Origin: a virus
IMG/VR virus record: IMGVR_UViG_3300010883_000144
Location: 1 to 37,048 of that record
Direction: 5' to 3' (one strand)
DNA: 37,048 bases
The position numbers were made by a program, and so were the translations under genes. The notes beneath the pieces were generated by a model. The model did no database searches and was not told the DNA's origin. It worked only from the letters and a program-made list of their open reading frames with translations. Position 1 is the first letter of the stretch; the number at the start of each line of letters is the position of its first letter. Shown here one piece after another: positions 6,093-29,000 of this stretch.

Positions 6093-9000
6093 TTAACTCG
6101 AACCCTCATCAACATCAGGCTCAATAGAGTCGCTTAACTCATTTAAGATCAACTTTTTACTATTAAATAATCTAGAATTATCGATATTTCTTAAAATGCT
6201 TAAAATACCTGGCGACATAGAAGGAGAATTTCCAGAGTTCTCAACTTTTTTGTCAATCTCACGCTCAAAAGCTTCGAAAGAAGTAAGGCTCTTAGAACCA
6301 TAAGGTTTTCTCATCGAGTCTTGGCTGCGCTTATTCATCGTCATATTACCAAAATTGGGCATGTGATGAGATGCTGCTGTTTTTTTATCAGATTTCTTCT
6401 TCATATCTTGACCCCACACATTCTTCATCCGGGCTTGTGCTTTAACTGGGGCATCGTCGTCGTCGATAGAGAGCAACAAATCTTCTTCTTCTTCATCATC
6501 ATCATCTATCTCATTAAATTTAGAGGGTTCTGAACTAGGATCTATAGGCATTCCGTCAAGTAACTTAGAGTCATCTCCCTGGTCAGCAGCAAAAAGACCG
6601 CCTCCCTCTTCTTCATCTCCGGTGTCTCCACCATCTTCTCCGCCGGCTTCGCCACCAGCTGCTTCGATCTCAGCATCATCCAGCTTATCTTGCTTCAAGC
6701 CCTCAGTGATGCCCTCAATATCTTCCTCAGTTAGACCAAGCACGTTCTTTCTAACCCACCCACGATTTAGCATACCTTCGGGCACTTTACCTGCAATATC
6801 AAAGCGCATACTAATTAACTCAAGTTTTTGTAACTGAGCTACTGAAGACGGGTTTGATAACCTCAAATCGAAATCGAGCAGTTCTTCAGCATCGTAACCG
6901 TGAGAGTATAAGTGAATCATCGCTAGTTTATTAAGTTCGGAGATGACTGTTTTTTGAATCCTCTGAATCGAACGAGAAAACCTGATATCTTCTTGCGCGA
7001 GGGTTGCTTTTGCACCAATATCTTCATCATAGCCTAGATAAGCTTTCGGGATTTTTATCGCAGCGAATAGTTTCTTCTGAATGTACTCTACGTCTTCTAT
7101 TGCTGTGGCATTTGTACCACCAGCTAACGTATCAATCTTTGTCCCACTATCGCCACCGCGAACTGGGATGTAGTAATCTTCATCTACAGCCATCGGATTG
7201 TATCTTAGATCTGCTTGGCCAGTAGAACTACTAGCTACTACACTTTTCTTAAGTGACGACTTCGCTTGCTCTACATATGACGCAACATCCTCAGGCGGAA
7301 CGTTACCAACATCTATGTAAAAAACCCTTCTTTCGGGTGCCCTTATGATCCTATACACGAGCATCGCGTCTTCAATAAGGATCAACTGGCGCCAGATTCG
7401 TCTAGCTGACTCTAAAACTGATGTTCCGTAGGGCAAAAACGCGTCGTTTGCTAACAGCCTAAAGTGAGTTATCTGCCAGTTCTCTAAAATTGTGTTTCCT
7501 TGAGTTATCCAACGAAACCTAACAGCGGCTGGATTATCCGGATCAAAACCCTCTTCCCTCTCTATCTCAGTAATCGGTATTGGGTAAGCATTGATGACGC
7601 CATATTCGGGATGGATATCATTAAAAAGGAAAAAATCGCCATATTTGACAAGATTCCTAACCCACATGACGAGATTAAACTCAACGTTTAGGGTATCATG
7701 AAAAAGCGTGTTTAGCAGCTCTTGTTTTTGGGGATCTTCGGAGTATATGTGCAAGACCCTTCCATTCTCATCTGAAGAAACTGTCTCTTCAGAGTATATG
7801 TCCAAAGCAGACGCTAGTTCGGGTGTTGCTTCCATCTCAGAATTTGAAACAAAGCATATTCCCTTACGAGTATTGCTATCGCAGACAGCAAAATTATGAG
7901 TTTTTGTAACTGTTATATCATAAACCGGCTCAGGCACTCCAGTATTTACGACACTTATAATTTTATGATTGACATAATTTTCCTTGAAATCAGAAAACGT
8001 TTGATAACCTTTCCACTGCAATCTTTTTCGAATCTTACCGGTTGATACATTTAATTTATCCGACAGCGATTTGAGCGTATCTTTCTTGTTATATACGTTG
8101 CAGATCACCTGGAAGTTTAAAGTCCTGTCTGCGTTAGCATTCTGTAATCTTTTTTGATCTTTCCTACTTTTGTTTCCAATACCCGGAGGGTTTGTCTTGT
8201 TTCTTAAGATTGTTGCAGCTACGTTTTTCCTATATCCGTCTGTTAGCTTTGTTTTCTTAAGATTCTTCTTTTGATTTTTGCGAAGGTCACCCGTCTCTGA
8301 CCATCTTAATGACATATAGGCTGATTGCTTTTCTCTTTCCTTTGGATCTTCGAACCGCTTATTATTAATTCTAGCATGCATTGCTAAATGCTCTTTAGCA
8401 TCCATCAACTCAAGATTTTCTATTCTATTATCTTCTTTGATAAAATTTTTGTGATGAACATGTAACCCATCTAATTTTTTTATTAAACGATTATTTGAAT
8501 ACTCTGCAATTAATACATGTTCTGGCTTCCAGCCCCTAGAGAACCCATAAATCCATCGATAGTTTCCTTTCGTGACTTTGGATTCAAACTGCTTTCTATA
8601 AAATGGCATTACAGCAGTATTTGGCTGTATTTCATCTGTTCTACAGTACTCGCCATTTCGAAGCATTATTGGGTGATTTCCGGTGCATCTAATCGTTGAT
8701 CCATCGTCAAACGTAATTTCATAAATTTCATCTTCTACAGTTTGCCACGCATTTTCTACCGGGGCCAGAACCGTTGAATCAGTCTCTTTATTATATGAAA
8801 AAACGTATACTGTTTCTCCGTTTTCAAACTTATTAACAATATCTTTGATAGCAATGACACCCTCTTCTGTGTTTGTTGCTATTAGAGTATCTCCAGTTAA
8901 ACAGAAATCGCTATACCTCGCCATCCTATCAAAAGCACCATAAGCGCTTAATGTAGAATTATAGATATCGCTGTGAGCTCTTTTGAAAAGCTCTACAGCA

Positions 9001-9107
9001 GATGATTTTGCACTGCTAGCTTTTCCAGCAATTTTACGCTTGACCACTGGGCCGGTACGAAAAATCCTAGTCAGCCTTTGGAATAAACTTTTTTCTTTTT
9101 CTGCCAT
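6093..9107 (-). CDS. Portal protein, gp20-like, interrupted by an intein (1004-aa precursor; about 650 aa after splicing)
   Basis: The portal is the dodecameric ring at one head vertex through which DNA enters and to which the tail attaches. Residues 1-68 are the basic N-extein. The family core starts again at residue 423 with SEMEATPELASALDIYSEE, followed by WVRNLVKYGDFFLFND, INAYPIPITEIERE and DAMLVYRIIRAPERRVFYID, and then the helical stem and crown region (RISRSIQRIQKT-like helices). Residues about 820-900 are Glu/Asp/Gly-rich and probably disordered, giving about 125 residues more than T4 gp20 (524 aa) once the 354-aa intein is removed. ATG at 9107 has only a modest site (GAGTG) and lies behind a hairpin. 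Neighbours are terminase upstream and the head genes downstream. Portal identity is strong; active splicing is inferred from intact motifs. Confidence 0.93.
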   Translation of the reverse strand: MAEKEKSLFQRLTRIFRTGPVVKRKIAGKASSAKSSAVELFKRAHSDIYNSTLSAYGAFDRMARYSDFCLTGDTLIATNTEEGVIAIKDIVNKFENGETVYVFSYNKETDSTVLAPVENAWQTVEDEIYEITFDDGSTIRCTGNHPIMLRNGEYCRTDEIQPNTAVMPFYRKQFESKVTKGNYRWIYGFSRGWKPEHVLIAEYSNNRLIKKLDGLHVHHKNFIKEDNRIENLELMDAKEHLAMHARINNKRFEDPKEREKQSAYMSLRWSETGDLRKNQKKNLKKTKLTDGYRKNVAATILRNKTNPPGIGNKSRKDQKRLQNANADRTLNFQVICNVYNKKDTLKSLSDKLNVSTGKIRKRLQWKGYQTFSDFKENYVNHKIISVVNTGVPEPVYDITVTKTHNFAVCDSNTRKGICFVSNSEMEATPELASALDIYSEETVSSDENGRVLHIYSEDPQKQELLNTLFHDTLNVEFNLVMWVRNLVKYGDFFLFNDIHPEYGVINAYPIPITEIEREEGFDPDNPAAVRFRWITQGNTILENWQITHFRLLANDAFLPYGTSVLESARRIWRQLILIEDAMLVYRIIRAPERRVFYIDVGNVPPEDVASYVEQAKSSLKKSVVASSSTGQADLRYNPMAVDEDYYIPVRGGDSGTKIDTLAGGTNATAIEDVEYIQKKLFAAIKIPKAYLGYDEDIGAKATLAQEDIRFSRSIQRIQKTVISELNKLAMIHLYSHGYDAEELLDFDLRLSNPSSVAQLQKLELISMRFDIAGKVPEGMLNRGWVRKNVLGLTEEDIEGITEGLKQDKLDDAEIEAAGGEAGGEDGGDTGDEEEGGGLFAADQGDDSKLLDGMPIDPSSEPSKFNEIDDDDEEEEDLLLSIDDDDAPVKAQARMKNVWGQDMKKKSDKKTAASHHMPNFGNMTMNKRSQDSMRKPYGSKSLTSFEAFEREIDKKVENSGNSPSMSPGILSILRNIDNSRLFNSKKLILNELSDSIEPDVDEGSS
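7842..8903 (-). mobile_element. Intein with HNH homing endonuclease inside the portal gene (354 aa)
   Basis: This is a protein-splicing element. It begins at Cys (codon 8903-8901) with CLTGDTLIAT, the usual intein block A, and has the block B TxxH as CTGNH at intein residues 73-77. It ends with block F (VYDITVTKTHNFAV, about 327-340) and block G CFVSN, followed by Ser as the first C-extein residue. The penultimate residue is Ser instead of the usual His. Residues about 145-180 carry an HNH motif (GLHVHHKNFIKEDNRIENLE), and residues about 275-305 look like a helix-turn-helix DNA-binding unit (LKSLSDKLNVSTGKIRKRL). The element keeps the portal frame open at both ends and seems more AT-rich than the exteins. 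Boundaries were checked at codon level. Splicing and endonuclease activity are not proven. Confidence 0.93.
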
Positions 9108-11135: not shown

Positions 11136-11396
11136 CTAAAAGAACTTATACATGGGATTGTACTGTTTATTTTTCCTTAACAGCCAATCGTCAATCTCTT
11201 CCTTGTTTGGTTTCCAGCTATCTCCGTTAATATTTCTGTTGGGTTCTATAAAACAAACAAAACAATCACAGCAAGCACCCTTATTGTAAGCACTAAATGT
11301 ATCTTCTAAAGTTTGTAAGATCCCGCCGCATATTTCGCACACAGATGGAATATTTTTCTCTCTTTCGTTAATATAAATATCAATAAAATCACTCAT
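11136..11396 (-). CDS. Small Cys-rich, probably zinc-binding protein (86 aa)
   Basis: The start is taken as ATG 11396, which overlaps the end of the Mre11-Rad50 gene by 8 bases; an in-frame TTG lies two codons earlier. Two cysteine pairs stand about 18 residues apart: C20-x-x-C23 (VCEICGG) and C42/C43 with C45 and C48 (ACCDCFVC). This pattern fits a treble-clef or ribbon zinc site. The C-terminal third is charged with Trp and Tyr (KPNKEEIDDWLLRKNKQYNP) and could be an interaction tail. Overlap with the nuclease/ATPase gene suggests a part in the same DNA-processing set, for instance an adaptor, but no family was recognised. Confidence 0.75.
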   Translation of the reverse strand: MSDFIDIYINEREKNIPSVCEICGGILQTLEDTFSAYNKGACCDCFVCFIEPNRNINGDSWKPNKEEIDDWLLRKNKQYNPMYKFF

Positions 11397-14300
11397 AAAC
11401 AACTAAAGAATTCTTTCCTTTACTCCTGATATCTAAAACATTGTCAACGACGTCTTTAATAGCATCGATATGTGATATAACCAAGATACACTTAAACCAC
11501 TTCTTTAGAGAGATAAGAAGCCGGCTACAAGCTTCTATGTTCCCATCATCCAAAGTACCGAATCCCTCATCAATTATAAGCAAATCTGACTTTGGTAAAT
11601 TAGAAACATTGATAAGAGCAACTCTGATAGCTAATGATGCTATCATCTTCTCCATGCCAGATGCACACTCAATAATCCTTTTTGAATCGCCATAGTCAAT
11701 AAATACATCTAGCGCGTTCGTTTTATATTCGGCCTCGATCTCTATAGTGAACTCAACAGCACCTTGCAATATTTTGTCTATTTCTGAGTTTATCAATGGA
11801 AGCTGTGCACTCATTATTTTTAGTGGAATACCTTTTTTATCAACTGCTTGCAAAAAAGCATTATAAGCATTCCATTTCTTTTTTAGCTCTGAGAATTTCT
11901 CTCTTTCTTCTTCAGAGTCAGTCAGCTGTTGTTGAGTTAAACCAATCTTTTCGCTTAAGCTCAACCTATCAGCATCTAAAAAGTTAGCCCCCTCAGTTAG
12001 TGATTTTAATTTATTTTTTAGCCTAGTTATCTCCGTTGCTTCAGAGCTTTGAGTCGCATTTAGCCTCATTTTAGAAAGCTTCTTTTTTGCTTCTGCTATA
12101 TCTTGGTTAATACTAGCATCTTCGACTTCTAATTCTCTTAAAGAAACTAAGATGCTGCTTTTCTCCAGCTTAGAGTCTGATTCTTTTTTCAAAATATCTT
12201 CGTATTTCTTAACTTTATCTTCCAAAGCTTCACCCAGAATCTTTTTTAAGTTACGCTTAATAGCTGAGCAATTAAAAGATACTTCTTTCACTTTTGTTTC
12301 TTGTTCTGGTATCTTGCTTTTTGCTACATGAGAATCCCTAATGAACTTACACGTCGGAAAAGAGTCTCCGCACGGCACGACCTCTAATGTACTAGCACAC
12401 TTCTTTTGATTTTTCAAAAGGGTCTTCTCTTTTTCTAACGCGTGCTGTATTTCTTGTAAGTTAGTTTCGATCTCTTTCTGCTGGTCGAGGTTTTCCTTTA
12501 ATTCTTCTATTGGAAACTGTTCTCTGATTTGCGAAATCTTCGATAAATGAGACTCTATATCAGATATCTTATCCGATACAGATATTATCTTTTCCTGCAT
12601 TGATTTGCTTCTGTTAGTCAGCAATTGTATCAGTTTTTTCTGGTCATCTATCTCATCTTCGGTAAAAGCTTCAGAATTTTCGTGCGTTGCCAAAAGCAAT
12701 TTTATACTGTCTATTTCTTCACGAATATTTTTCGACTGCTCTTCAACCTCAGTCCTCTCGCTAACTAACATTTCTAAATCAACTCGTTTGTTCCTAATGA
12801 TTGTTGCCCAATCACGATCGGGAGCCGATTTCATAGAACCCTTAAGCTCAGAAAATTCGTTCTTCGCTATGTTCAGCATATTATCAAAAACACTGAGATC
12901 AAGAAATTTAGTCAAGATCGATTTTCGAACAGTAGCACCGTTTTTAATAAAGTTGTTCATTCCGCCCTGGCTTGCAAGGGATGTAAGCAGAAAATCCTCT
13001 GCGGTACCGACCAGTGTCTTGAGATCTTTATCAGTTTCTCGGCGCTGTTCACCGCTTAGATCCTCTAAACTGTTTCCATCGGGATCTAGTTTCCACATGT
13101 TTAAGCTAGTCGATGCAGAAGTTTTTCCAGCTCTGTTTGTGTGTTTAGCTGAATGTCTCTCTATCCTATAAGGTTTTCCATTGACGGCCAGGTCGATCTC
13201 TACTTTACAAAAACCCTTCCTTGAATTTATGATGTGCAGATTCTTTATTGAACCGCGATCTGTCGTGTTGAAAAGACCGTACATTAAGGTACCCGGAATT
13301 GATGACTTCCCGATCCTATTCTTTCCAAATATACCGGTGATGCCGGTGATCTTATCAAAATCTATAACATTCCCGTTACCGTAACCGAAAGTGTTATCAA
13401 ACTTAAGCTTCTTCAATGACCAGCTGAGATTCTTTTTACTCTCATCTCTAGAAGCTTCAGATGCTACCCTTTTGGTCATATCTTCTAAGATATCTCTTTC
13501 ATCGTCAGTTAACACAAAAGTCTTTGTGTACTCTATCATGAGTTTCGTATGAGTTGCTGGATTTGAGAGATCACCCTTATCTAGAATAGTATCTCCAATA
13601 CTAATCTTTTCTTCTTTTTTATCTTCTATATCCCATTTGAAAACAACTTCGGTAGCTTTATATATTTCTCTCACTTCATTAAAAAGTTGTTTTATCTCGC
13701 TTTGTGGAATCACTGTTGAAGATCTAAAACGAAAACGACCATAAATCATACTTTCATCGATATTTGAAAGCGTTGATTCTACATCGCCCTCCCAGCTGAT
13801 CGTATAAAATGATCTCTTGTTAGCTACCGGAAAAAACTCGACGGTAAAATTATCTCTATCTTCTATATCCCAAACTAAGAAACCCTTCTCTATATCTTCT
13901 CCGTAATTCTGCTGAATGATTGAACCCGGATAAGCTATCCTCTTGTCATCAACCAAAAATTGTTGCTTGTGAATATCACCTAAGAAAGCAAAATCATACT
14001 CTTTAAAAAAATCTGACTTTATCTGATCAAACTCAGTTATATCCCAATCACTATCTATTTTAGAGCCCTGAACAGGACCGTGGAAGAGGGCGATAGAGAT
14101 GTTCTCTGGGTCTGGCTTAAGATCTGCCCATGATTCTTCATCAAAGCAAGAAAAAACGCACCAGCTAACATTGTGGCCCGTTAGAGGGTAAACTCCGGAT
14201 TGTTTGTAGAGGTGCAACCTATCGTCGCCAATTGCTTCAATAACTGGGGTGATAGCATCTTGTCTGTCTTTGTTGAGTATTAACCCGTCATGGTTACCCA

Positions 14301-14538
14301 AGATAATATGCGTAGGTGCAATCGCAGCTAGTCCCTTAAACCACCAGACAAGTATCTCGATCAACTCGGGTGATATTCCCTGCGTCTTCGAGTGTACTAT
14401 ATCACCACCCACAAAAATAGCATCGAGGTCCATCTCTCTAAGCGACTCAAAAATATCCTCAAACACTTCGCGATACTCTTCGTGCCTAGATAAACCACGA
14501 AAATGTATGTCAGCAAAATGTGCACACTTAAAACTCAT
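11389..14538 (-). CDS. Single-chain Mre11-Rad50 (SbcD-SbcC; gp47-gp46) fusion, recombination nuclease (1049 aa)
   Basis: This nuclease/ATPase processes DNA ends for recombination-dependent replication and can open hairpins and branches (family knowledge). Residues 1-340 are an Mre11-type phosphoesterase: DIH at 10-12, GGD at 44-46, GNHD at 81-84, FHGP near 152 and GDIHKQQ at 187-193. Residues about 365-1049 are a Rad50-type ATPase: Walker A GKNRIGKSS at 405-413, coiled coils at about 585-720 and 740-890, signature ASGMEK at 959-964, Walker B LLIIDEGFGTLDD at 986-998 and SHID at 1022. The tip of the coiled coil has C723 and C730 (VPCGDSFPTCKF), a Cx6C hook rather than CxxC. No stop or start separates the halves. 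In T4 and most bacteria these are two genes. ATG at 14538 has GAGG upstream. All motifs look intact. Confidence 0.93.
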   Translation of the reverse strand: MSFKCAHFADIHFRGLSRHEEYREVFEDIFESLREMDLDAIFVGGDIVHSKTQGISPELIEILVWWFKGLAAIAPTHIILGNHDGLILNKDRQDAITPVIEAIGDDRLHLYKQSGVYPLTGHNVSWCVFSCFDEESWADLKPDPENISIALFHGPVQGSKIDSDWDITEFDQIKSDFFKEYDFAFLGDIHKQQFLVDDKRIAYPGSIIQQNYGEDIEKGFLVWDIEDRDNFTVEFFPVANKRSFYTISWEGDVESTLSNIDESMIYGRFRFRSSTVIPQSEIKQLFNEVREIYKATEVVFKWDIEDKKEEKISIGDTILDKGDLSNPATHTKLMIEYTKTFVLTDDERDILEDMTKRVASEASRDESKKNLSWSLKKLKFDNTFGYGNGNVIDFDKITGITGIFGKNRIGKSSIPGTLMYGLFNTTDRGSIKNLHIINSRKGFCKVEIDLAVNGKPYRIERHSAKHTNRAGKTSASTSLNMWKLDPDGNSLEDLSGEQRRETDKDLKTLVGTAEDFLLTSLASQGGMNNFIKNGATVRKSILTKFLDLSVFDNMLNIAKNEFSELKGSMKSAPDRDWATIIRNKRVDLEMLVSERTEVEEQSKNIREEIDSIKLLLATHENSEAFTEDEIDDQKKLIQLLTNRSKSMQEKIISVSDKISDIESHLSKISQIREQFPIEELKENLDQQKEIETNLQEIQHALEKEKTLLKNQKKCASTLEVVPCGDSFPTCKFIRDSHVAKSKIPEQETKVKEVSFNCSAIKRNLKKILGEALEDKVKKYEDILKKESDSKLEKSSILVSLRELEVEDASINQDIAEAKKKLSKMRLNATQSSEATEITRLKNKLKSLTEGANFLDADRLSLSEKIGLTQQQLTDSEEEREKFSELKKKWNAYNAFLQAVDKKGIPLKIMSAQLPLINSEIDKILQGAVEFTIEIEAEYKTNALDVFIDYGDSKRIIECASGMEKMIASLAIRVALINVSNLPKSDLLIIDEGFGTLDDGNIEACSRLLISLKKWFKCILVISHIDAIKDVVDNVLDIRSKGKNSLVVYE

Positions 14539-14545
14539 CTTAACC

Positions 14546-15517
14546 TCAAAATATCGAACCCGACTTAATCGAAGAGATCAAGTTAAGCAACCTATCATCG
14601 GTACCAAATGATTTCGCATCACTTAACCGTGACATAAATTCTTCTTTCGACATCGTGCCGACATCTTCGTACCCCGAACAGTCAAGCATCCTCACACTTA
14701 TCCCATAAGATGACAACAAATGTGCTATGTTATGCGTCTTATCTATCACATCCGGATCAAGAGCTAAACAAACGGGCGTATTATTTTCAACTATTCTTTT
14801 AAATAAGTTCTGGCCTTCTTTTAAAGTACATCCCAACAAGCAAGTTGCGTTATCGTTAGCTTTTATCAGATCAAAAGGACCCTCGACTAAAGTCAACTCT
14901 TCATCCCAATCAATATTGATCTCGTTGAAAATAACGTTCTTTCTTGGAACTTTAGAGTTGATATACTTCATCTTAGAATCTTTAAAGATAGATCTTGCAA
15001 CGTAATAGTTTAATTCTCCGTCCTGATCAAATGATGGCATTATCACCCTTTGTCTAAATCGACCTCGAGTGACTGCTCCCAGCTTAAAATACCAAAAATC
15101 ACGTTCTGACATGTTTCGAGACTTGGCATAAGATATTGCAGATTTTATATCTGGATCGATAATATTTTTTGATTCAGCTAAGAAAATAAAACCCCTCGGA
15201 AGATCAACGACAATATCTTCCTCTTGCCCCGCTACGGGCTTCTCACTATTTCCCAAACTCCTGAAAATTCTTTCGGCCTCAGTATATAAAGCAGGAAAGT
15301 AACGGTTGATTAGCTTTCTAACACCAATACCAGAATTCCCACAAACCCAACAATTATACTGCTGCGTATCTATCTGAATAACTAGCTTTAATTTTCCTTC
15401 GCGAAAAGATTTGCACTTCTTGTTTGGGCAAAGCACTTCAATATTAATATTATCAGGAGTTGGCCGAATTTTCTTAAAAGATTTTCTTAAAAAATTTATT
15501 TTTTCTGTTCTAGACAA
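14546..15517 (-). CDS. DNA primase, zinc finger plus TOPRIM (gp61-like, 323 aa)
   Basis: It makes RNA primers for lagging-strand or recombination-primed synthesis, normally with a DnaB-type helicase that is not in this window. Residues 30-59 hold a zinc-ribbon with C30-x4-C35 and C56-x2-C59 (YNCWVCGNSG). Residues about 150-200 carry the RNA-polymerase-like part with FRQRVIMPSFDQDGELNYY. The TOPRIM fold follows, with E212 in LVEGPFD and D254/D256 in ALDPD. Length is close to T4 gp61 (342 aa). The start appears to be TTG at 15517, overlapping the resolvase end by 22 bases; no ATG or GTG lies before the first zinc Cys, so a rare start is needed. The ribosome site is weak (GGGA). A T4-type gp61 assignment over another DnaG-like primase is by size and phage context. 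Confidence 0.85.
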   Translation of the reverse strand: MSRTEKINFLRKSFKKIRPTPDNINIEVLCPNKKCKSFREGKLKLVIQIDTQQYNCWVCGNSGIGVRKLINRYFPALYTEAERIFRSLGNSEKPVAGQEEDIVVDLPRGFIFLAESKNIIDPDIKSAISYAKSRNMSERDFWYFKLGAVTRGRFRQRVIMPSFDQDGELNYYVARSIFKDSKMKYINSKVPRKNVIFNEINIDWDEELTLVEGPFDLIKANDNATCLLGCTLKEGQNLFKRIVENNTPVCLALDPDVIDKTHNIAHLLSSYGISVRMLDCSGYEDVGTMSKEEFMSRLSDAKSFGTDDRLLNLISSIKSGSIF

Positions 15518-16059
15518 GTTTTTTCCCGTAAATGAGCACTAGCAGCCACTATATAAGCATCTGCCATATCATAACACTCATTTATCAAAACTACATTTCC
15601 TCGGCGTGGACCAGACTTCATGACCTTCGTTGGCCACTCAATACTTGGCTCGAGAGCACGCACAAAGTCTAGCACTTGTTCCTTTGTATTTTTCTTATCT
15701 TTTCTGTCTTTCTTAAAACCGACTAACTTACGAGCAGAGTTGACGTTAACAAATTCTGGATCAAAACCAAAAACTTCGGAAGTTATGTAAGAGCAAATAC
15801 CATTAAACCTTGCGAGACTAACGATCGTCTTAGCGCTTGATAGCCCAGGCCTGAATGCTTGAAGGTTTTCTTCTATCACAACCTTTCCGATGGAGAAGCT
15901 ATCTTTTATCATAGAAATTTCTTGGCGAAAATAAGCTGCTTTCTCAAAAGGGGATTTTTTTTTCTTTAAATCGATGAAACTAACGTGCTTCACTTTGTCA
16001 GCATCGTCAATCAAGCAAATCCCGATAGCTGACGTTGATATGTCTAATCCTAAAGTCAT
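15496..16059 (-). CDS. RuvC-like Holliday junction resolvase (187 aa)
   Basis: It is predicted to cut four-way DNA junctions. The RNase H-fold acidic residues are present: D6 in LGLDISTSAIGI, E63/E64 in KVVIEENLQAF, and D164/D167 in YDMADAYIVA. Length matches RuvC (about 170-190 aa). The start is set at ATG 16059 because it precedes the first motif by five residues as in RuvC; an in-frame ATG at 16104 would overlap the upstream gene and add a non-family leader. Neither start has a clear ribosome site. T4 uses an unrelated resolvase (endonuclease VII, gp49), so this is a functional replacement. A run of nine T on the plus strand (15955-15963) lies in the Lys-rich segment at residues 32-35. It stands directly before primase and Mre11-Rad50, consistent with branch clearance before packaging. 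Confidence 0.88.
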   Translation of the reverse strand: MTLGLDISTSAIGICLIDDADKVKHVSFIDLKKKKSPFEKAAYFRQEISMIKDSFSIGKVVIEENLQAFRPGLSSAKTIVSLARFNGICSYITSEVFGFDPEFVNVNSARKLVGFKKDRKDKKNTKEQVLDFVRALEPSIEWPTKVMKSGPRRGNVVLINECYDMADAYIVAASAHLREKTCLEQKK

Positions 16060-16075
16060 TAAAGAATTATAAAAG

Positions 16076-18616
16076 TTAGAAGTCCATCTTAAACTTGAAC
16101 ACATACTTGTCGTTATCTTTTCTAACGATCGGGCGAGCGAGGTTTACTTTACCGATAACATTGAGGTTTTCATCGTGAATAAACATATTAGTGATTAAAT
16201 TACACCCCATGCCCTCATCAGCCGGTAAGTTAGTCGGACTTAGATCTTGAAATGTCGGGTTAGAAGAACTAACAGCTTCATCGGCGGATATCGGCACCCT
16301 CATCTCCATGACATGCACATTTCTATCGCCCTGGAACCAAGTTTCGAAAGAAATTTTGCCGAAAGGCGGGATCGTTGGGTCAACCAAACATGCCAAACCC
16401 TCTTCATACAACAAGTGTCCCACCGAAGACCATGTTGGATGACTTCCCGTAGCATCGCACCGATAAAGACTACCATAACCGTTGTCTCTAAAAGTTAAGC
16501 TTATCTTACCGGCCGAACCCGTCACAAAAATATCTCTAAGGTAAAACGATTCACCATTAATTGAATCACCATAAAACATATTCGAAATATCTAAAAACGT
16601 AATTTCGTTAGAGTTGGCATCTTGAGTCCTGTTTAGGACAGTGAGATCGATCTGACTTCCGGAACCTGCGCCGTAGACATCATTATATTGCAGAGTCACT
16701 GGATTGCCCGTGGCGGTATCTATTATACCAATGACATTGGGATCCGGCAACAAAGCATTTGCTATCGAATCGGGATTTTGATCTTTAAAATGCAAGACTT
16801 CGTGTGTCTGTGAAAAAGATATCATGTCTTGCATGTTAACGTGACCAAGTTTAGTATTACCGCTATCGTCAAGCATAGATCTTGGGATGTTATCATCTTT
16901 TATGTTTGCTATTAGCTTAATTCTTCTATCTAAACGACTAAATTGTGGGTATAAATCACCGTTATCGCTGGGTAGTATTGTGAGGTTTCTTTTTCTGTTT
17001 TGCGGCCTTAGGTAAAGGGCATCAGTAGCAGAAACATTGAAGAAATCTTCTGAATCAAAATCTGTTATTGAGCCCGCCGCGGCGGTCTCTTCTAGCATGA
17101 AACACCTAGCTTGCGTCTTATTCACAAAATCATACGCAAAATTTTCAAGATTTATCGATCTCCCGCCAAGACCAAATGATAAGTCTAAGTTAAATGGGGT
17201 ATGACTGCTTGATAAAACACTTTGAGACGGTGTCTTGAGAACTAACCGTTGAGAACTTGATGGCACAAATGCAGGAGGTAAATAAAACAGAAAATCAGAA
17301 TCACTGTAGTTTTGGTAGCCTATTTTAGCAGAAGCATTTATTTCGGTATCAGTTCGAAATCTAGAAAATATTTTTAATTCTTGAACTTCGGCATTTAGCG
17401 GACAGTTAAAATCGTGAACGACATTAGAGCTTTGGCTACCGGTCAGAACTTCTTCAACACCAAAGTTCTTTGCTTGAAGTGAATCGAAAAGATAGCTTAT
17501 CTTGATTGCCCTGTTATCTCCTGATAGATCTAAGTCATCGGCAGTATTGTTAACAGTATCGTTCGACGCTTCGTAACGATTACCAACAACTAGGCCGGTC
17601 GGGATATCATTTACGTTCGAGAAGCTAGATGACAAAGCTAGCGTATCTTCAATAACAAATTCACCAGCATTTTGACCATCTATGTAAAAACTACCAGTGT
17701 AATTATTTTGGTTTTTTCCACCCCATCTTATAGCACAATGGCTCCAAATATCTCTTTTGAGAAAACTATCCGAAGAAATGAAGATTCTTTGATCTTGGCT
17801 GCCTGTGGCTTCAGACGTATCGGGTTTTATCGAAGATGGTAAAACCTGGGCATTGTTTCCCAATTGAAACAGCAAACGAAAAGTATTGGGTCGACCCAGA
17901 GAATCTTTACCAGATCCAGATATCATAGAAACGCAGTAAGCGTTTGGTAAGTGAAGTATGGTGCCCGCTCCGTAGGTATCAGCAGACGTATCTGTAGTAT
18001 ACCTAGGGTTTATATAGAACTCAAATGAAAATGACGCAGAGGGATAATATCGTGATGGAACTCTTCTAGAGATCGGGTTCGGAAACACTAAAGCAGAATC
18101 GCTTGGAACACCGGACGGGTATGCGGCAGATGAAGTAAAAAAATTTAAACTATGGTAATTAGTAAACCCAAAATTAAGTGGGTTATCATATTGCATCTGG
18201 TAAAACGGCAATAAGTTATTAATAAAAATAGATTTTCGCACTGTATTTTGATTAAACTCGTGCGGCATATCAAACCGATAAACTATAAGCTTTTTTTGGT
18301 TATCAAGAGAACCAGCAAGGGAGTTAACACTATCTAAGTAATTTGAAATGAAACTGCTTATATTAAAACGCTCAGAACCGGGCATTACTCCCTTGACAGC
18401 AACAGCGCCGGCTGGTGTCGGGGAAACAAGCGATAAAATATCATTCCTGTATTCTGTTAAATCATTTGTAATGTTTTTAAGCGTATTGCTTCTCTCAGCA
18501 AAAAGAAAAACGTCGCCGACAATTCCACCGCTTGAAGAAGACTTAAAATGTTGCGTCGGATGAACTCTTACAGAGCTTACCTTAAAATCTTCCGGAAGTA
18601 TGGGGATTAGAGCCAT
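16076..18616 (-). CDS. LamG-domain putative virion protein (846 aa)
   Basis: The family is not named with confidence. Residues about 190-400 form a concanavalin/LamG-like jelly roll: SASFSFEFYINPRY at the start, AGTILHLPNAYCVSM, RDIWSHCAIRWGG, TGSFYIDGQNAGEF, and a later EVQELKIFSRFRTDTEI. Such domains bind sugars or serve as structural beta modules in phage tails and capsids. The region 400-740 is mixed and beta-rich. The last about 75 residues (SSNPTFQDLS to NLARPIVRKDNDKY and a final KMDF) match in pattern the end of the neighbouring 441-aa protein. ATG at 18616 has AGGGGG upstream. Position after a run of virion genes points to a tail, baseplate or fibre part; host-receptor binding is possible but unproven. 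Confidence 0.8.
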   Translation of the reverse strand: MALIPILPEDFKVSSVRVHPTQHFKSSSSGGIVGDVFLFAERSNTLKNITNDLTEYRNDILSLVSPTPAGAVAVKGVMPGSERFNISSFISNYLDSVNSLAGSLDNQKKLIVYRFDMPHEFNQNTVRKSIFINNLLPFYQMQYDNPLNFGFTNYHSLNFFTSSAAYPSGVPSDSALVFPNPISRRVPSRYYPSASFSFEFYINPRYTTDTSADTYGAGTILHLPNAYCVSMISGSGKDSLGRPNTFRLLFQLGNNAQVLPSSIKPDTSEATGSQDQRIFISSDSFLKRDIWSHCAIRWGGKNQNNYTGSFYIDGQNAGEFVIEDTLALSSSFSNVNDIPTGLVVGNRYEASNDTVNNTADDLDLSGDNRAIKISYLFDSLQAKNFGVEEVLTGSQSSNVVHDFNCPLNAEVQELKIFSRFRTDTEINASAKIGYQNYSDSDFLFYLPPAFVPSSSQRLVLKTPSQSVLSSSHTPFNLDLSFGLGGRSINLENFAYDFVNKTQARCFMLEETAAAGSITDFDSEDFFNVSATDALYLRPQNRKRNLTILPSDNGDLYPQFSRLDRRIKLIANIKDDNIPRSMLDDSGNTKLGHVNMQDMISFSQTHEVLHFKDQNPDSIANALLPDPNVIGIIDTATGNPVTLQYNDVYGAGSGSQIDLTVLNRTQDANSNEITFLDISNMFYGDSINGESFYLRDIFVTGSAGKISLTFRDNGYGSLYRCDATGSHPTWSSVGHLLYEEGLACLVDPTIPPFGKISFETWFQGDRNVHVMEMRVPISADEAVSSSNPTFQDLSPTNLPADEGMGCNLITNMFIHDENLNVIGKVNLARPIVRKDNDKYVFKFKMDF

Positions 18617-20758: not shown

Positions 20759-23065
20759 TCACTCACGACCCAATTGTCGTTTTGTTACCCCAAGCTGCTT
20801 AGCTACTTCTAGCAAATCTTCTTCCGAACCAGCGGTTCTATAAGTATCATCTACCTGGTATTTTAAAACTACGTCATTTGCCCTGTCGGAATTTAAAATC
20901 TGTATAAAATAATGATTTTGTGAATTTCCACCGTCTTCTTCCCGTGTACCCTTGACTATATCGATTGTTCTTGAATCTGCATCTGGGCCTTTTTTAACTT
21001 TCTTGTACTCGGGTCGAAAAAGTATTCTTGCTTTTCGATAGCGGCTAGCTCTAGCGACATCTTGAAACACTTTAGTCTTTAAAAACCAGTTCGGAAAAAC
21101 TAATGGTGCGCCTGGAGGGGATACTTCTTTAAGAGAAAGCTTGTTAGTCCTAGAATCTAACCGCACTTCCACTTGCGAGCTGTAATTTGACATCTGGCCG
21201 TGCGCGTCTATAGAGCAAACAGCGTATATATAGTCGGTGTTTGCTTCAATATTATCACCGTACGAAGCAAAAGAATCATCTGGTCCCATCCTCTTCACTT
21301 TACTAGTAATATCGTACCCGGCCCGCGGGCGATCATCACCTTCAAGCCTATCGCCCATGTCGAATGGGCGGTCAAGCACTATCTTTAGTTCAGATATGCT
21401 ATCACCGGGAGATAAAGAGTAGTTAAAATCGTTAACTTGAAGCAACTGAAATGGTTCATAGATAGATTTTCTTCTGAAGATAGCGAAATATGTTGTGTCC
21501 CGTTGGGAACTAACTGGAAAAGCCCAATGAAACACAAACTCCTCAGTATTAAAATCGTAAAACCCGTCTAAATCTCGAGGGTATGATGGAGGATTTATCT
21601 CTTTTGTCTCTAACCTTAAAACGCTAGAATGGGGTGAATTCACAAAATACTTAAACTTGTGAGACTGATCACCGCCGTCAGGTATGGTTATCTCTAAGTG
21701 ATAGACAGACTTTATGGTGTACCTATATACCACACCATAATTTATAGCAGCATCAACGTAACGTATGGGAATGAACCCTAACTCGTTAGTAGCTGAAACT
21801 GAATCACATGATAAAAACATTAAGGGAAATTTTTCTGACGTTTCTTCATCAGTATTAGCATTCTTAATTTGCTCTTTTTCAATAACAAACCCAACTAGCT
21901 TCGGATGAGACATATCGGCTTGGGCAGCAGAATCAAAAGTCTCTACCAGATAGGGGTTACTCGTCATTAAGATCTGTTCTAATGGGCCGGGAGGGGGAGC
22001 ATCAGCGCTTGCTAAAGCTTGCCGAATTATATCAAACTTTTTCTCTTTTGTTCCGTCGCTTAAGCTTAATAGATACTCATCATTATATATGATGTTTCTA
22101 ACTCTAGATTGCATCCCAAGGATGTTTCCGGAAGACGCTACTCCTGACCTAGCCACGTTATTAGAAAACCTAGAATTTAATATTAAAGTAATTTCCTCAG
22201 CGGGTTCTTTTATGTTAGGGTAAGCGGGCTGTTCTAAAAGATCGTTATCTTTCATGGCAGGAGAGGGCATCAATGCTCGGGGAACGTTTGGATCCCGACC
22301 AAAGACTGAGTTATCATCTGTAATTTCCGCGTAGCTGGAGCAAGTCTCATATTTTAGCTTAAAACAATTCTTATAACCCTTAGATGAATCATCACCGATT
22401 ATCATGTCCCACAAAAACCTCTGTCTTTCTTCGGTATACGAAGAATCAATCTCATCAGCAAACCATGGGTTAGCAATTTGGTCACCAAGAAAGTCTACGT
22501 GCGAAAACATGTCCAAATATTCATTGCTAATAGAAATCCACCAGCGCTGCATGACTTCAAAATTTTCTTGCTTCTTCCATATAGAGTTAACAGGGTAAGG
22601 CCACTGATTTCCACCCTCAAATTGGTGGTCTTCTTCTCCTTCTTCAATTAAACCAGTTAAAACTTCAAAATCCCTTATTGCGTCTGAATTTGCAACTTCT
22701 TTTATCGCACCTTCGGATAGTTTCCAAGCCAATCTAATGTAAGAGGGGAACTGTCGAGCAACTCCAGACGATCTAGTTAGATCTCCTGGGTTATCGCTAA
22801 ACATGAATTTACCGTTAATATCCCTTAGCCATGTAGTATCAAAATTGGGATTGTTAAAATTGTAATTACCCCTCTCACTCTGAGTGTAATAATTATAAAT
22901 AAAAATATTGTTAAAATTTATCCCCTGTACAGTGGGAGAGTTCAGCCGATTGTGGCTTTCCCAGATAGGAGGATTAGTAACTAGCATAACTACAGCCCGA
23001 GACGAGTTAGTCTGGGTACCTGCAGCTGATTTTACCTTAAGATCATGTCTGTTTAATACTGTCAT
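20759..23065 (-). CDS. Putative virion protein with FN3-like domains (768 aa)
   Basis: The first about 480 residues are unrecognised, aromatic- and Asn-rich (NFNNIFIYNYYTQSERGNYN) with no membrane segment. Residues about 490-640 look like one or two fibronectin type III/Ig folds: a PPSYPRDLDGFYDF opening, FVFHWAFPVSSQRDTTYFAI, a DTTYFAIFRRKSIYEPFQLL strand pair, and ADTDYIYAVCSID-type strand with a Ser-Asn-Tyr-Ser end. Residues about 650-730 are basic and beta-like, and the last 25 (EEDLLEVAKQLGVTKRQLG) resemble a small helix-turn-helix. ATG at 23065 overlaps the giant gene upstream by four bases (ATGA), so both are likely co-translated. FN3 folds are common in phage tail and baseplate proteins, where they bind carbohydrate or act as spacers. 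Role inferred. Confidence 0.8.
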   Translation of the reverse strand: MTVLNRHDLKVKSAAGTQTNSSRAVVMLVTNPPIWESHNRLNSPTVQGINFNNIFIYNYYTQSERGNYNFNNPNFDTTWLRDINGKFMFSDNPGDLTRSSGVARQFPSYIRLAWKLSEGAIKEVANSDAIRDFEVLTGLIEEGEEDHQFEGGNQWPYPVNSIWKKQENFEVMQRWWISISNEYLDMFSHVDFLGDQIANPWFADEIDSSYTEERQRFLWDMIIGDDSSKGYKNCFKLKYETCSSYAEITDDNSVFGRDPNVPRALMPSPAMKDNDLLEQPAYPNIKEPAEEITLILNSRFSNNVARSGVASSGNILGMQSRVRNIIYNDEYLLSLSDGTKEKKFDIIRQALASADAPPPGPLEQILMTSNPYLVETFDSAAQADMSHPKLVGFVIEKEQIKNANTDEETSEKFPLMFLSCDSVSATNELGFIPIRYVDAAINYGVVYRYTIKSVYHLEITIPDGGDQSHKFKYFVNSPHSSVLRLETKEINPPSYPRDLDGFYDFNTEEFVFHWAFPVSSQRDTTYFAIFRRKSIYEPFQLLQVNDFNYSLSPGDSISELKIVLDRPFDMGDRLEGDDRPRAGYDITSKVKRMGPDDSFASYGDNIEANTDYIYAVCSIDAHGQMSNYSSQVEVRLDSRTNKLSLKEVSPPGAPLVFPNWFLKTKVFQDVARASRYRKARILFRPEYKKVKKGPDADSRTIDIVKGTREEDGGNSQNHYFIQILNSDRANDVVLKYQVDDTYRTAGSEEDLLEVAKQLGVTKRQLGRE

Positions 23066-26000
23066 GATTGTTCGTAGACCCTTTTAACTTTAACCCTAAG
23101 CGCTAAGGGCCAGTTATTCTCACGCTTAACTTGATACCTGAGTACTCCGTCGACTGTAACCTGCTCTAAATATCCCAGCTCTTGGGCAAAGTCGTAAAAA
23201 TTGTCTAATTTTATATTGGAGTTGCTAAAGTCGATTAAATCACTCGCATTTGGATTCTTATTGGCATATTGCGAAATCCTTGGGTCATCTACTAGATGCA
23301 AGTTAGTCCCGATACCATCGAGCTTGCTTCTAAGCGCAGTTTTTAACTTAAACTCGTTCAAAGAATACGGAATAGCCAAAATCATATCAAAAGCAAAACC
23401 ATCGTGAAAATCACTCATGATTTCTTCAAAATTTGATTTCGCTTCATTTATAGACGTCAACACTTCGCTAGCTCTCAATGAACCCTTATCGATCGGTTGG
23501 TTAAACCTGAAGGGGTGAAACCACGATTTATCACCGTCTTCGTTGTTGATGAAGGCATCCTTGGAAAAGAGAGAAAAATCGTTGCCAGAAACATCGACAA
23601 CTTTGCTTCTTCCGTAAGAGTCAAACTCCCTATATTCCAGGCGTCCGGTCTCATCATTAGATATTGCGGGAACGTAAGTTCTGTCAAAGAAGTATTTTAA
23701 AATGTGCCTCGCTTGTCCCGTAGATGAATCTTGATGTGCCCTTAAGTAATCTACAATGCCTTTTGTGTGAGTCCTTAACTCTTCTCGGTAGTTCCTCTCA
23801 TCAGAGAATAGATCGTCGTTTGTCACGCTGCTTAGCATTTGGTGATTGTATTTTTTTGGAATTAAGTATGAATAAAAGTCTAAACCGATAACTTTGCTAA
23901 TATACGTTTTTAAAAACGTGTTAAGAGAAAATTTAATGTTGCTAGCTTCTGGTGTTTGAGCTAATCCGTCGGGGTGGTTGGGATCTTCAGTATTGTTCCA
24001 ATTTTTGAGTATCCCGTCGGTCTTTCGATCGGGATCAATTATCCAAGAAGATAACTTAGACATCACTGTTCGATGATTAATGCTTTCGTGGGATATTGAC
24101 TCCATTTGTGCTGTCCACCAAGCTAAGTTGTAAAACCTATAAGCTTTCGATCGAGGATATATCATGTCTGTCAAAGCGAGTCGTGGGATATGCTCAAAAA
24201 CCAACCACGGTCGGAAATAATCAACCATCTCAAATTCAACTTTGATTTTGTAATTGCTTCGAGAAGAGACAGAAAAATTGGTTAAATCGTTTTCAGCGGT
24301 GGAAAATGTCTGATTAGCCGAAAGTATTTTATCTAACTGTCCTGATTCTATTCCGAAAACGCAAACTCTATCCCCGGGTGTCAAGGCATTTTGAGACATA
24401 AAATTTCTCTCTATCTTCAAGAACGGCGCAATCGCTCCATGAGCTCGAATTGAATCAGAAGGCTCTTGAGTTTTCTCAATATCATATGGACTTAACTTAA
24501 ACAGCGTTGGAAAATGTTGCAGGCCGTCGAAGACAGCAATATTGTCGTCTTGGAGTTTGAGTTGATCTTGGGCAGAGATAGTTTTACCGTAATGAAGGTT
24601 CTGGGTGGGATCGAGACCCTGTAGTACACCGTCAACGAGATATGAAAACGCGGCGCTGGGCAACGTTGCTGGGCTGGGCGAAATTAGTTGGTGAAGGTTG
24701 TGGTTACCTTGCTTTCCCTCTTGAACCAGCATACGCAAACTACAAAGATTATCTAAAACGTCTGGAGTTACATTGATAATTCCAGCACGCTGGATGAAAT
24801 CCAATACCCAATTGGGAGCGTTATCGTAAATGCCAGGGCCATGTTCGCCGGTCCCAGGAATTTGGCTAAGATTCGAAAAAGCTCCAGCGTAACCCGAAAC
24901 AAACACTTCCCAAGCCGCAGCATACGTTTCAAGATAAGCTTTTAGCGTATACAAGTACTCAAGGTACTGGCCCTCTAGAGATTCGATGTTACGAATTAGG
25001 GCTAAATCAGTTTTTAATTTCAAATCGTGGCTCTGACCCGGGGCAGGCTGTAGTTGAAAGTTCGCAAATTTCAATAAATTTAATTCAAAGATTGGGTTAT
25101 GAGCATCGACTACGGCAGTGTCTATTTGCCTGTAAAAATCTACGTCTAAAGACGGATATTCGATGGTCCAATGTTTAAAAAACGGCATATTGGAAATAAT
25201 AAGCCTATTTCGTCTTGCATCATTGTTGGGCACATTGTAAGTGTCGTTATAACCCTGAGTAGCTATCAAAGCCTGCCTAAAGAAAATTAGGGCTTCGTTC
25301 TCAGCCTCATTCTGTTTGGCTTTCTGACTTTCTGCCAAGTGCCCTTGAAATGACGTTTTATTCAAACCGACAATTTCGAATTCGCTTACTGAATACGCCA
25401 TGGAGTTGAGACCCTCAGGCGTGCTTATACGACGAAAATTAAAGTTTTGGTCTGGTATACCTGATATCCCACGAGCAGCCATCGAATCCCTGATATTTTT
25501 ACCGATTTGAAGATCGATAGTCAGTTGTTGAGATGTCCACCCGTCTTGACCCTCGAAATCGGGCGGGTTGTTAAAGTCGGATTCGTCACCGGCTATTTTT
25601 ACCCGCTTTACGTAAGAATCAAGCTCTGACATGAGTCTTAGTGAAGATCTCTGTGTCCTGTTGATCTGACTAAATTCTTCGTAGACGGGCTCTTCGCTCC
25701 ACCATGTTATCGGTCTAGTTGGTTGAGAGTCGTCCCTGACAAGCCATATATTAAACTCGACAATATGAGCATCAGCTACTGCGGGGTCGACTCCGACGTT
25801 GCGTACCGGTCCGTCAACAGTACGGGTAATAGACTCACCGCGATGCAAGGTATCCATCTCGGGCCGAAGATGCCTGATAAAATCCGGGTCATTCTCCACT
25901 GCTTCTTCGCTTACGCTAATCACGGTACGATCAGCCTCGGCATTCGGAGCGTAAGCCATCTCAGGTGGAAGCTTATGTTGTCTACCAACAATATCCTCTG

Positions 26001-29000
26001 TCCAGCCACCGAACACTTGGCGAGCGTGGGAACATGGGACCATGTGGGTGAAAGCTGTGGCTCGCTGGTATGTACTCGTGGCGGGGTTGTGAATCCAATA
26101 ATCGTTGAAGCTAGATAAAGATTCATCAGTGGGGTCTAAGCCGGCCTGAGGACGACGATCTACTCCTGAGCCACCCCAACTTGCCGGTTGGGTTTCATTC
26201 TGACCCGGATAAGCTATGTAAGAAACGTGCCCTTGATCCTCGAAGTGGCTTGGTTTTCCGGTCCAATTGATCAAGGAGCGTGTCACTGGATCAAGCCCAT
26301 AAATTACATCATTCGTGATAGATGCTGCGATGGCGTTATGATTAAGACCGTATTTGTTAAAATTTCTAGGAGCTAATCGATGGCCCCACCTAAACGTGCG
26401 TTGATCAAAACGGTCGATAGCTTGCTTAGCAGTATATGCATGCTCGTGCCCGATTTTGTCGGTATTCGGATTTGTGCCGCCTCCGGATTCATTCGGTACC
26501 GACCAGCCGTCCATTAGCGTCTCGAGGGAGTGGGGCCAATTTACGTTATTATAATCGTGGGGTCCAGAGTCGTTTATCTGACCTTGAGAGTGTTCTGTAG
26601 ATGCTCCGCTATGATAATAAAACATCATCTCTTCGTAGAACTCTTGCGATGTTGGAGGTACGTACTGCCAGTAACCGCTTAACAGACCGCCTAGGCCGAA
26701 TTCGCCCTTTGAATCAACCATTCCTGGATGGCAGCCAAAGCCTTTGATGTTGTGGCTACCGTATGATGGCCAACCACCAGCAATATTCGGTGCTGAGCTC
26801 TTCCAGTAGGTGCCATCATCGTTGAGGAGTGGTTTTGTTCGAGACAATTTACCGCCGGATTCACGGTTGTACGGTGGGTTTATGTATTGCTCAGCGTCAC
26901 TGGGCAATGGTAAGACAGATGCTTTATCATCCGATAACCTAATAAAAAACGCTTTCGCCATCTGGAAATTCTTGATCCAGGCTATATGGTTTATCGACGA
27001 CAACCAATTCTTCAAGTCGACTCTGGATTGACTACTATATTCATAATACTGAATAACATCAGCTAACCTAGAAAATGAGTTTGGTTGAGTAAGGAAACCA
27101 TTTGCACCGTCTTTCCATTTACTAATTCCAGTTATCTCTCTCAAATCGAGCATGTGATTCGCAGCGATGCCGACGCCAAACGCTCGCTCACACCAGCCAA
27201 TAATGTGCGCTGCAGGTTCGTCGATATTTGCGTTGGCTGTTCCCGCCCAGCGGTATGCCGAGGGGCTGAGTGGGTAGTGAAGCACCCCATCTACGGGAGG
27301 GGTATTATCTACATTTTGCCAGTGGTCAGTCGGTACCGGGAGGTTGCACTGATATGCTTCGAAAAAATTGTATGTTGCCTTCTTTAGTCGAACTCGAATC
27401 GTCACCTTGTGGCGATGAAGTTCCACATCTGAAACCGCTGAATCTGAAATGACCCTGGGCCTAAAAAACCAACTTTGTGACTGGTTATCTAAGTTGCTCT
27501 GCCTATTACTTGCAGCAGAATTGTCCCAATAAATCTTCTCCCTCTCTTTTAACGTGGGTGACCTCTCGTAAAGCATAGCATACCAATGAGGAGGGAGACC
27601 GACGATATTTCGCTTATAAAAAGCGTCTACAGCTTCTAGATCTCGAGAATTAAAAATTCCGCGATCTTCATTAGACATGTTGTGTACACCGTAGTTGTAG
27701 CCAACGGGGCCGCTCTGCCCCGCACCACCCGCTGCCGATCCAAGGTCCCCGCCAAGGCCGCCCTCGGACCGGGCGTTCACGGTTGAATATGGGCGGTGAG
27801 AGTATCCAAAGAAAGTTAAAACTCTTTGGTAAGAGGTGTTGTTTTCGGTTCGGTTGTTAGGATGCGTAAGATAGACCCTGATTGCTTCTGTGGGCATGCC
27901 GGAGTTGATAAGTTCTAGTAAATCTTCCGATATGCCAACTTCCTTAGCAACTACACCCATAAAATGTGAATCGTAACTAGGTCTCTGTTGCACACCAATA
28001 GTTTTACTGTCTCTGCTATTAAGTAAGAGACGAGTTGAGGCCGATGAGGAGACGTAGTCTTCGAGAAGATCATTGGCGTTCATTCCAGCAGTAGCTACGA
28101 TCCCTGCGATTTTTTTATCTAGAAAATCGCTAGTCAAAGATACGTGCGGTAAAAACCCAGATTTTGTTGCTCTTGCTATAACTTCCACATCGGGGGTGGC
28201 GTCGTTTAAATTATTGTCATTTTTAATAGACAAAAAGAAGCTGGGATTTATTGTTAAACGTTTCTCAGCAGCTTGAAAATATTGGTTAGTCCTTGCTACA
28301 AAATCGTTCAAGCGACGTGCAACTTCTTGCCGCATCCCAAATCCGTTGTTACCCGCTAAGTCATCGCGTGTGTAACCGTTGAGCGCGTTGGACCGCAAAG
28401 CATTCAAGCTGCTCTTGATCTCTGTATCATTCTCATTGCTATCGGTTCGAAACTCTTGAAAGTAACTGTGTCTTTCGTTATCCTCTAACAAAAATGTGTT
28501 GTTTCCTACAGCGTCTGTCGTAGCTAACTGAAACTGGGGTTTTACTCGAGGTAAATCATTGCATATCTCAGAAGCAATTTCAACGTATTCCCAAACGCAG
28601 CGAAATATCTCTTGAGCTGACATTTTCAGGGTATGTTCTCCCGCTCCCCCCTCAACTCTGCTTACTAACCCAAGACCAGTTAAAATCCCTATCTCGTTTT
28701 TTTGAAACCTCGATCTTGACCACGTTTTTTCAAAATCATCGCCCAAATTATCAAAACCGTAAAAAAGTTGAGCACAGATATTTTCTGATAGCGCTACTAA
28801 GATATTGGTGTCTCTATTTAAATTTAAAAACCTAGATTTGTAATCTTCTGCAACCCACTCACTTACAGCCGATCGGGAACTTCCGCCGAGGCCGCTGAAA
28901 CCGGCATGGCCCGTAGCACCCCCAGCACCAACACCGAAAACTCCGTAAACTTGCACACCACCCAACTGGCTCTGATCTCCCTGGCCTCGCTGAGAAAGGT

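Follow-up and report, generated by a model that had tools for sequence, protein, structure and literature searches.

A fused Mre11-Rad50 gene with a C-x6-C hook motif in a putative large T4-like phage and its relatives

The fused gene and its genomic setting

The window, the whole 37,048-base virus record analysed here, carries on its minus strand an uninterrupted frame encoding both Mre11 and Rad50 (Table 1). The protein matches Pfam Metallophos at residues 4-191 (E 7e-11), the PHROG SbcD family at residues 1-368 (E 4e-31) and the PHROG SbcC family at residues 243-1048 (E 6e-55). Its Mre11 part holds the phosphoesterase motifs (DxH, GD, GNHD/E and the later histidines) as ADIH (9-12), GGDIVH (44-49), GNHD (81-84), LFHG (151-154) and GDIH (187-190). 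Its Rad50 part holds five ATPase motifs, namely GKNRIGKS (Walker A, 405-412), SGMEK (signature, 960-964), LLIIDE (Walker B, 986-991), GTLD (D-loop, 994-997) and ISHID (H-loop, 1021-1025), which are split by a long coiled coil, as seen from the motifs, the structural model and the Foldseek matches. Both domains are complete within one chain with Mre11 at the N-terminus, the arrangement of fusions of the Mimivirus R555 type. Fifteen catalytic positions are identical in all 73 aligned relatives, namely D10, H12, D46, N82, H83, H153, D188 and H190 in the Mre11 part and K411, S412, S960, G961, D990, E991 and H1023 in the Rad50 part, indicating that the motif matches are not due to chance. The preliminary description of this DNA had placed Mre11 and Rad50 in one 1049-aa frame, which the frame, Pfam, PHROG and motif evidence confirms; its motif positions agree with our motif scan, and the strand, minus, is added here.

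Table 1 Positions of the fused gene, its parts and two neighbouring genes in the window
Feature	Coordinates	Strand	Details and basis
Fused Mre11-Rad50 gene	11389..14538	-	1049 aa; ATG at 14538, stop at 11389; uninterrupted frame
Mre11 phosphoesterase (nuclease) domain, aa 1-240	13819..14538	-	Pfam Metallophos, motifs, model, E. coli SbcD structural match
Mre11 motif positions	14503-14514, 14392-14409, 14287-14298, 14077-14088, 13969-13980	-	
Mre11 capping region, aa 241-320	13579..13818	-	model; PHROG SbcD match extends to residue 368; lower confidence at ~305-314
Helix-loop-helix, aa 325-363	13450..13566	-	model; Rad50-binding motif assigned by position
Mre11/Rad50 linker, ~aa 364-371	13426..13449	-	model and alignment of 73 relatives
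Rad50 N-terminal ATPase lobe, aa 372-548	12895..13425	-	Walker A GKNRIGKS at 13303-13326; PHROG, model, motifs, Foldseek
Ascending coiled-coil arm, aa 549-720	12379..12894	-	model
Hook loop cysteines C723-x6-C730 (VPCGDSFPTCKFI)	12349..12372	-	model and relatives
Descending coiled-coil arm, aa 734-899	11842..12339	-	model
Rad50 C-terminal ATPase lobe, aa 900-1049	11392..11841	-	Pfam, model, motifs, Foldseek
C-terminal lobe motifs	signature 11647-11661, Walker B 11566-11583, D-loop 11548-11559, H-loop 11464-11478	-	
DnaG-like primase	14546..15517	-	upstream neighbour, same strand; Pfam, PHROG
RuvC-like Holliday junction resolvase	15496..16104	-	neighbour; PHROG

The window appears to be part of a large T4-like phage genome, and the phages carrying the fusion are large and mostly marine. 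Downstream of the fused gene lie two small frames, followed by a T4-type terminase and a T4-type portal gene. The portal gene (6093-9107, minus strand) carries an intein with an HNH endonuclease domain at about residues 69-422, for which both the N- and C-terminal intein models score over their cut-offs; the 656-aa portal frame of one relative (L006) has no intein. A 3005-aa frame at 23062-32079 (minus strand) has no Pfam match at E 0.001, and the same holds for five of its neighbours and for positions 774-2420. A RecA-family recombinase is present in 14 of 14 contigs tested, an observation made in relatives, the window being a 37-kb fragment.

Predicted structure, linker and hook

An AlphaFold2 single-chain model was built from 73 sequences, with a mean pLDDT of 84 and a pTM of 0.47, the latter leaving the position of the nuclease relative to the heads unfixed by the model. 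The nuclease extends to about residue 240 and the cap to about 320, followed by helices at 327-340 and 345-363 and the first Rad50 strand at 372; a tip loop (721-733) lies between the two coiled-coil arms. Foldseek matched the model to Rad50/SbcC of the Chaetomium, E. coli and human MR complexes and to E. coli SbcD. Among full-length structural matches, predicted proteins of Tupanvirus, Harvfovirus, Yasminevirus and Catovirus rank first, with those of Tenacibaculum phages next.

According to the model, the putative Rad50-binding helices are kept in the fusion and the linker is only about 8 residues long. Since the helix-loop-helix is present at 327-340/345-363 and the Rad50 strand begins at 372, the linker is placed at 364-371, rather than at about 340-370 in place of the Rad50-binding helices as previously proposed. 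Across the 73 relatives, the stretch 363-373 is 10-12 residues long and is the least conserved part of the protein, with an identity to the commonest residue of 0.32, compared with 0.67-0.73 for the nuclease and heads. It has been estimated that 9-12 residues are enough to span the 28 Å between the chains in the Thermotoga complex (PMC3175470). Taken together with the length of this stretch, the geometry is what would be expected of an ordinary complex whose chains have been linked. A covalent link could affect the choice of head to which a nuclease is tied, the folding of the two parts together and their inheritance as a unit; in a dimer, each nuclease may dock on its own head (cis) or on that of the partner (trans). 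Since Mre11 and Rad50 form a 2:2 complex even as separate proteins, a fixed 1:1 ratio, earlier put forward as a benefit of the fusion, would gain little.

In Rad50, the tips of two chains are joined by zinc bound at a CxxC motif (PMC9569753). The coiled-coil tip of the window's family instead reads VPCGDxFPxCKFI, with C723-x6-C730 in place of CxxC. This C-x6-C motif occurs in 80 of the 82 best relatives, L067 and L089 being the two that differ, and the hook loop has an identity of 0.73 versus 0.37 in the surrounding coiled coils among the 73 relatives. CxxC was found in T4, A511, two T5-like phages, phiM12, S-SSM7 and E. coli, as well as in Mel-JY01, LR756501, pT24, MA9V-1, PAU and GN1; the exception among the comparators is Moorella phage MTATph1, whose tip is C-x7-C. 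On the tree of nuclease and ATPase lobes described below, the distribution can be explained by a single change on the branch leading to the window's family, with C-x6-C later lost in L067. The C-x6-C tip may bind metal and, lacking the canonical CxxC, may join hook to hook in a different manner. No paper on a C-x6-C hook was found in a literature search that had most subscription journals outside its reach.

Continuity of the frame and relatives with a split nuclease domain

IMG/VR was scanned with a profile, which yielded more than 500 relatives and favours full-length matches. All of the 82 best relatives, most of which come from other metagenomes and three of which are full-length loci of bacterial or archaeal genome bins, hold both domains in one open frame of 1038-1054 aa where the ends could be placed. 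A second scan was seeded with the hook motif only and was hence blind to the Mre11 half. Among the matches listed, it gave 56 complete frames, of which 48 have the standard Mre11 motifs and 2 more have variant ones, while the remaining 6 comprise 5 frames of a split form and 1 short fragment; the counts from both scans concern the matches listed and are not frequencies. No whole Mre11 gene separate from Rad50 was found for the window's family among the matches listed in both scans. Moreover, 12 long related contigs (123-289 kb) have all their strong SbcC and SbcD matches in one same reading frame, and none has a second full Mre11; one contig has a marginal second SbcC match (E 2e-4) and another a weak second SbcD match (E 1e-5). 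The preliminary description had treated the fusion as exceptional, which does not hold: fusions of this kind have been in print since 2011 (PMC3175470), and in this phage group they are the norm, being routine throughout the 82 best relatives, a finding that it had itself listed as a refuting one.

An assembly in which a missed stop or a frameshift joined two normal genes would give the same appearance, and an artefact of this kind exists. The apparent fusion of Listeria phage LMTA-57 (L099, 3995-7024) is rejected as a true fusion, because a single nucleotide of an A-run is deleted compared with A511; the ribosome site and start of its second gene are still in place, and the one-base difference is probably a sequencing error or a fresh mutation. 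For the window, a check for such an error near the linker suggested none: the frame continues across the same junction in all 82 best relatives, most of them from other metagenomes, the linker stretch is stable in length, and no Shine-Dalgarno sequence with a start was found around the linker in the window, nor there in 77 of the 82 relatives. An artefact therefore has next to no likelihood. It is also conceivable that the chain is made whole but works as two, with a protease or an internal start freeing Rad50 and making the fusion mechanically meaningless. The low conservation of the linker and the fact that T4 and others function with separate subunits favour this possibility, whereas the constrained linker length, the lack, in the window and those 77 relatives, of an internal start preceded by a ribosome site and the absence of RNA structure in the region (z -0.6) argue against it, making it very unlikely. 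Programmed structure or re-initiation at the linker was likewise rejected, with no RNA structure and no ribosome site in the window.

Fourteen distinct relatives have a frame that is interrupted within the nuclease domain, directly after GDIH and ahead of the YPGS...QQN segment. Loci split in this way include L119, L140, L185, L193, L221, L228, L235, L247, L267 and L297, along with L003 (5001-9169). The first half, located upstream in 12 of the 14 by script and in L247 by hand, closes with a conserved tail, for example ELEIDEADLSNHPGAEVIG; the second begins MSKRIRIRTKKPWIAYPGS and runs on into Rad50, to which it is still fused. In seven loci (L140, L185, L193, L221, L228, L235 and L297), the stop codon apparently overlaps the following start as NTGA, and the halves overlap by 8 bases in L119/L282. 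In L247, a 289-aa frame that matches phage endonuclease families lies between the halves. The distant LR756508 has a 305-aa endonuclease-family frame at the same place; no intron was found in its split gene at the Rfam gathering threshold, a result compatible with a spliced or an unspliced gene. In a quick tree, the split state requires at least 4 changes; L241 and L240, of which one is split and the other whole, are closely similar in the part that they share. Homing endonucleases made the genes-in-pieces of Aeh1 nrdA and T4 gene 60 (PMC2988022), which the split relatives resemble; the pieces of Aeh1 NrdA were shown to co-purify in active form (PMC2988022).

Predicted function and relation to known systems

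The gene very probably encodes a single-chain phage Mre11-Rad50 complex (SbcCD, T4 gp47/gp46), most likely acting in end resection for recombination-dependent replication and repair. Established knowledge of Mre11-Rad50, together with the 15 conserved catalytic positions, points to ATP-controlled trimming of DNA ends, and the fused protein is predicted to have nuclease and ATPase activity. Two copies would dimerise via their nuclease domains, ATP-bound heads and coiled-coil tips, and ATP binding and hydrolysis would open DNA ends to the nuclease. During infection, the putative complex would trim and tether broken or replicated phage DNA ends, letting a phage RecA-type recombinase start recombination-dependent replication and repair on the processed ends. 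T4 gp46/gp47 act in recombination-dependent replication (PMC3175470).

The main task might instead lie outside phage recombination, for example in host DNA breakdown or in countering host defences, given that the T4 record links gp46/gp47 to host-DNA degradation besides recombination and that the Rad50 half matches the Lamassu protein LmuB in a defence library (E 8.5e-23). However, LmuB is an SMC relative, so this match is expected for any Rad50, and the neighbouring primase and resolvase, as well as RecA in every long relative tested, speak for the recombination role; a different main task is thus considered unlikely. The fused protein is not identified as LmuB, which it matches through the shared ATPase family, and no LmuA or LmuC partner genes were found beside the fused gene, where the neighbours are primase, resolvase and terminase.

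A tree was built on the nuclease and ATPase lobes, with Staphylococcus phage ZCSS1 left out because of a missing motif. In this tree, 24 fused proteins form one clade with long branches (support 100/98), comprising the window's family, Mel-JY01, the Nitrosopelagicus-bin locus, LR756501, pT24, MA9V-1 and PAU, and the T4, T5-like and Herelleviridae pairs lie outside it. Yersinia phage GN1 also has a fused protein, whose annotation seems to use a late start, and this one is placed elsewhere. As judged from these sequences, a single origin of the fused clade is likely rather than proven because of the long branches. Loci of the window's family were also seen in MAG contigs named Halobacteriovorax, Methylococcaceae and Nitrosopelagicus (L087, L088 and L089); L087 and L088 probably represent phage contigs that were binned with bacteria.

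More tentatively, and with slightly less than even confidence, we propose a widespread aquatic phage lineage that would perform resection with a single-chain Mre11-Rad50 whose tips are joined by a new C-x6-C metal site, including several sublineages in which a mobile endonuclease would have cut the chain after GDIH, the enzyme reassembling from an Mre11 N-half and an Mre11 C-half-Rad50. The C-x6-C hook and the split nuclease seem less familiar than the fusion itself. One gene could supply Mre11-Rad50 in ready-made form to structural studies, where the cis link would restrict the movement of the nuclease; the altered hook offers a test of whether Rad50 tips need CxxC geometry for joining; and relatives with a whole or a nuclease-cut protein form a natural test of what covalent links are worth.

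The fusion itself has been known since 2011, and the window's family adds a well-sampled phage branch. The paper of that year reported Mre11/Rad50 fusions from a moss, algae and slime moulds, from Mimivirus R555 and Bacillus phage 0305phi8-36 and from plasmids of Clostridium kluyveri and Deferribacter, and described relatives as numerous among aquatic viral metagenomes (PMC3175470). Our literature search, which had the same bounds as above, turned up no further paper devoted to these fusions. Like R555-type fusions, which are abundant in aquatic viral metagenomes, the window protein has Mre11 before Rad50, keeps the capping region and helix-loop-helix and has a short linker, and mimivirus-like proteins are its best full-length structural matches, albeit at only 16-22% identity. 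Unlike R555, it belongs to a phage host group and has about 1050 aa versus 1351. The two domains are fused in the same order in Microcystis phage Mel-JY01, Tenacibaculum phages pT24/PTm1, Chryseobacterium phage MA9V-1, Sphingomonas phage PAU and the huge-phage assembly LR756501, whose proteins are annotated as "AAA", "DNA repair", "metallo-phosphoesterase" or nothing. Whole-chain identity to the window protein is about 31% for Mel-JY01 and about 26% for LR756501, with pT24/PTm1, MA9V-1 and PAU more distant, and the fused proteins of Mel-JY01, pT24, MA9V-1, PAU and LR756501 have a CxxC hook, unlike that of the window. As the preliminary description held for T4 and nearly all cells, two genes are the usual arrangement in most phages and cells, seen here in T4, T5-like phages, A511 and E. 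coli. T4 gp47/gp46, T5-like D12/D13 and E. coli SbcD/SbcC share both domains, all motifs and the expected chemistry with the window protein, but are encoded by two genes and carry a CPTC/CPLC hook.
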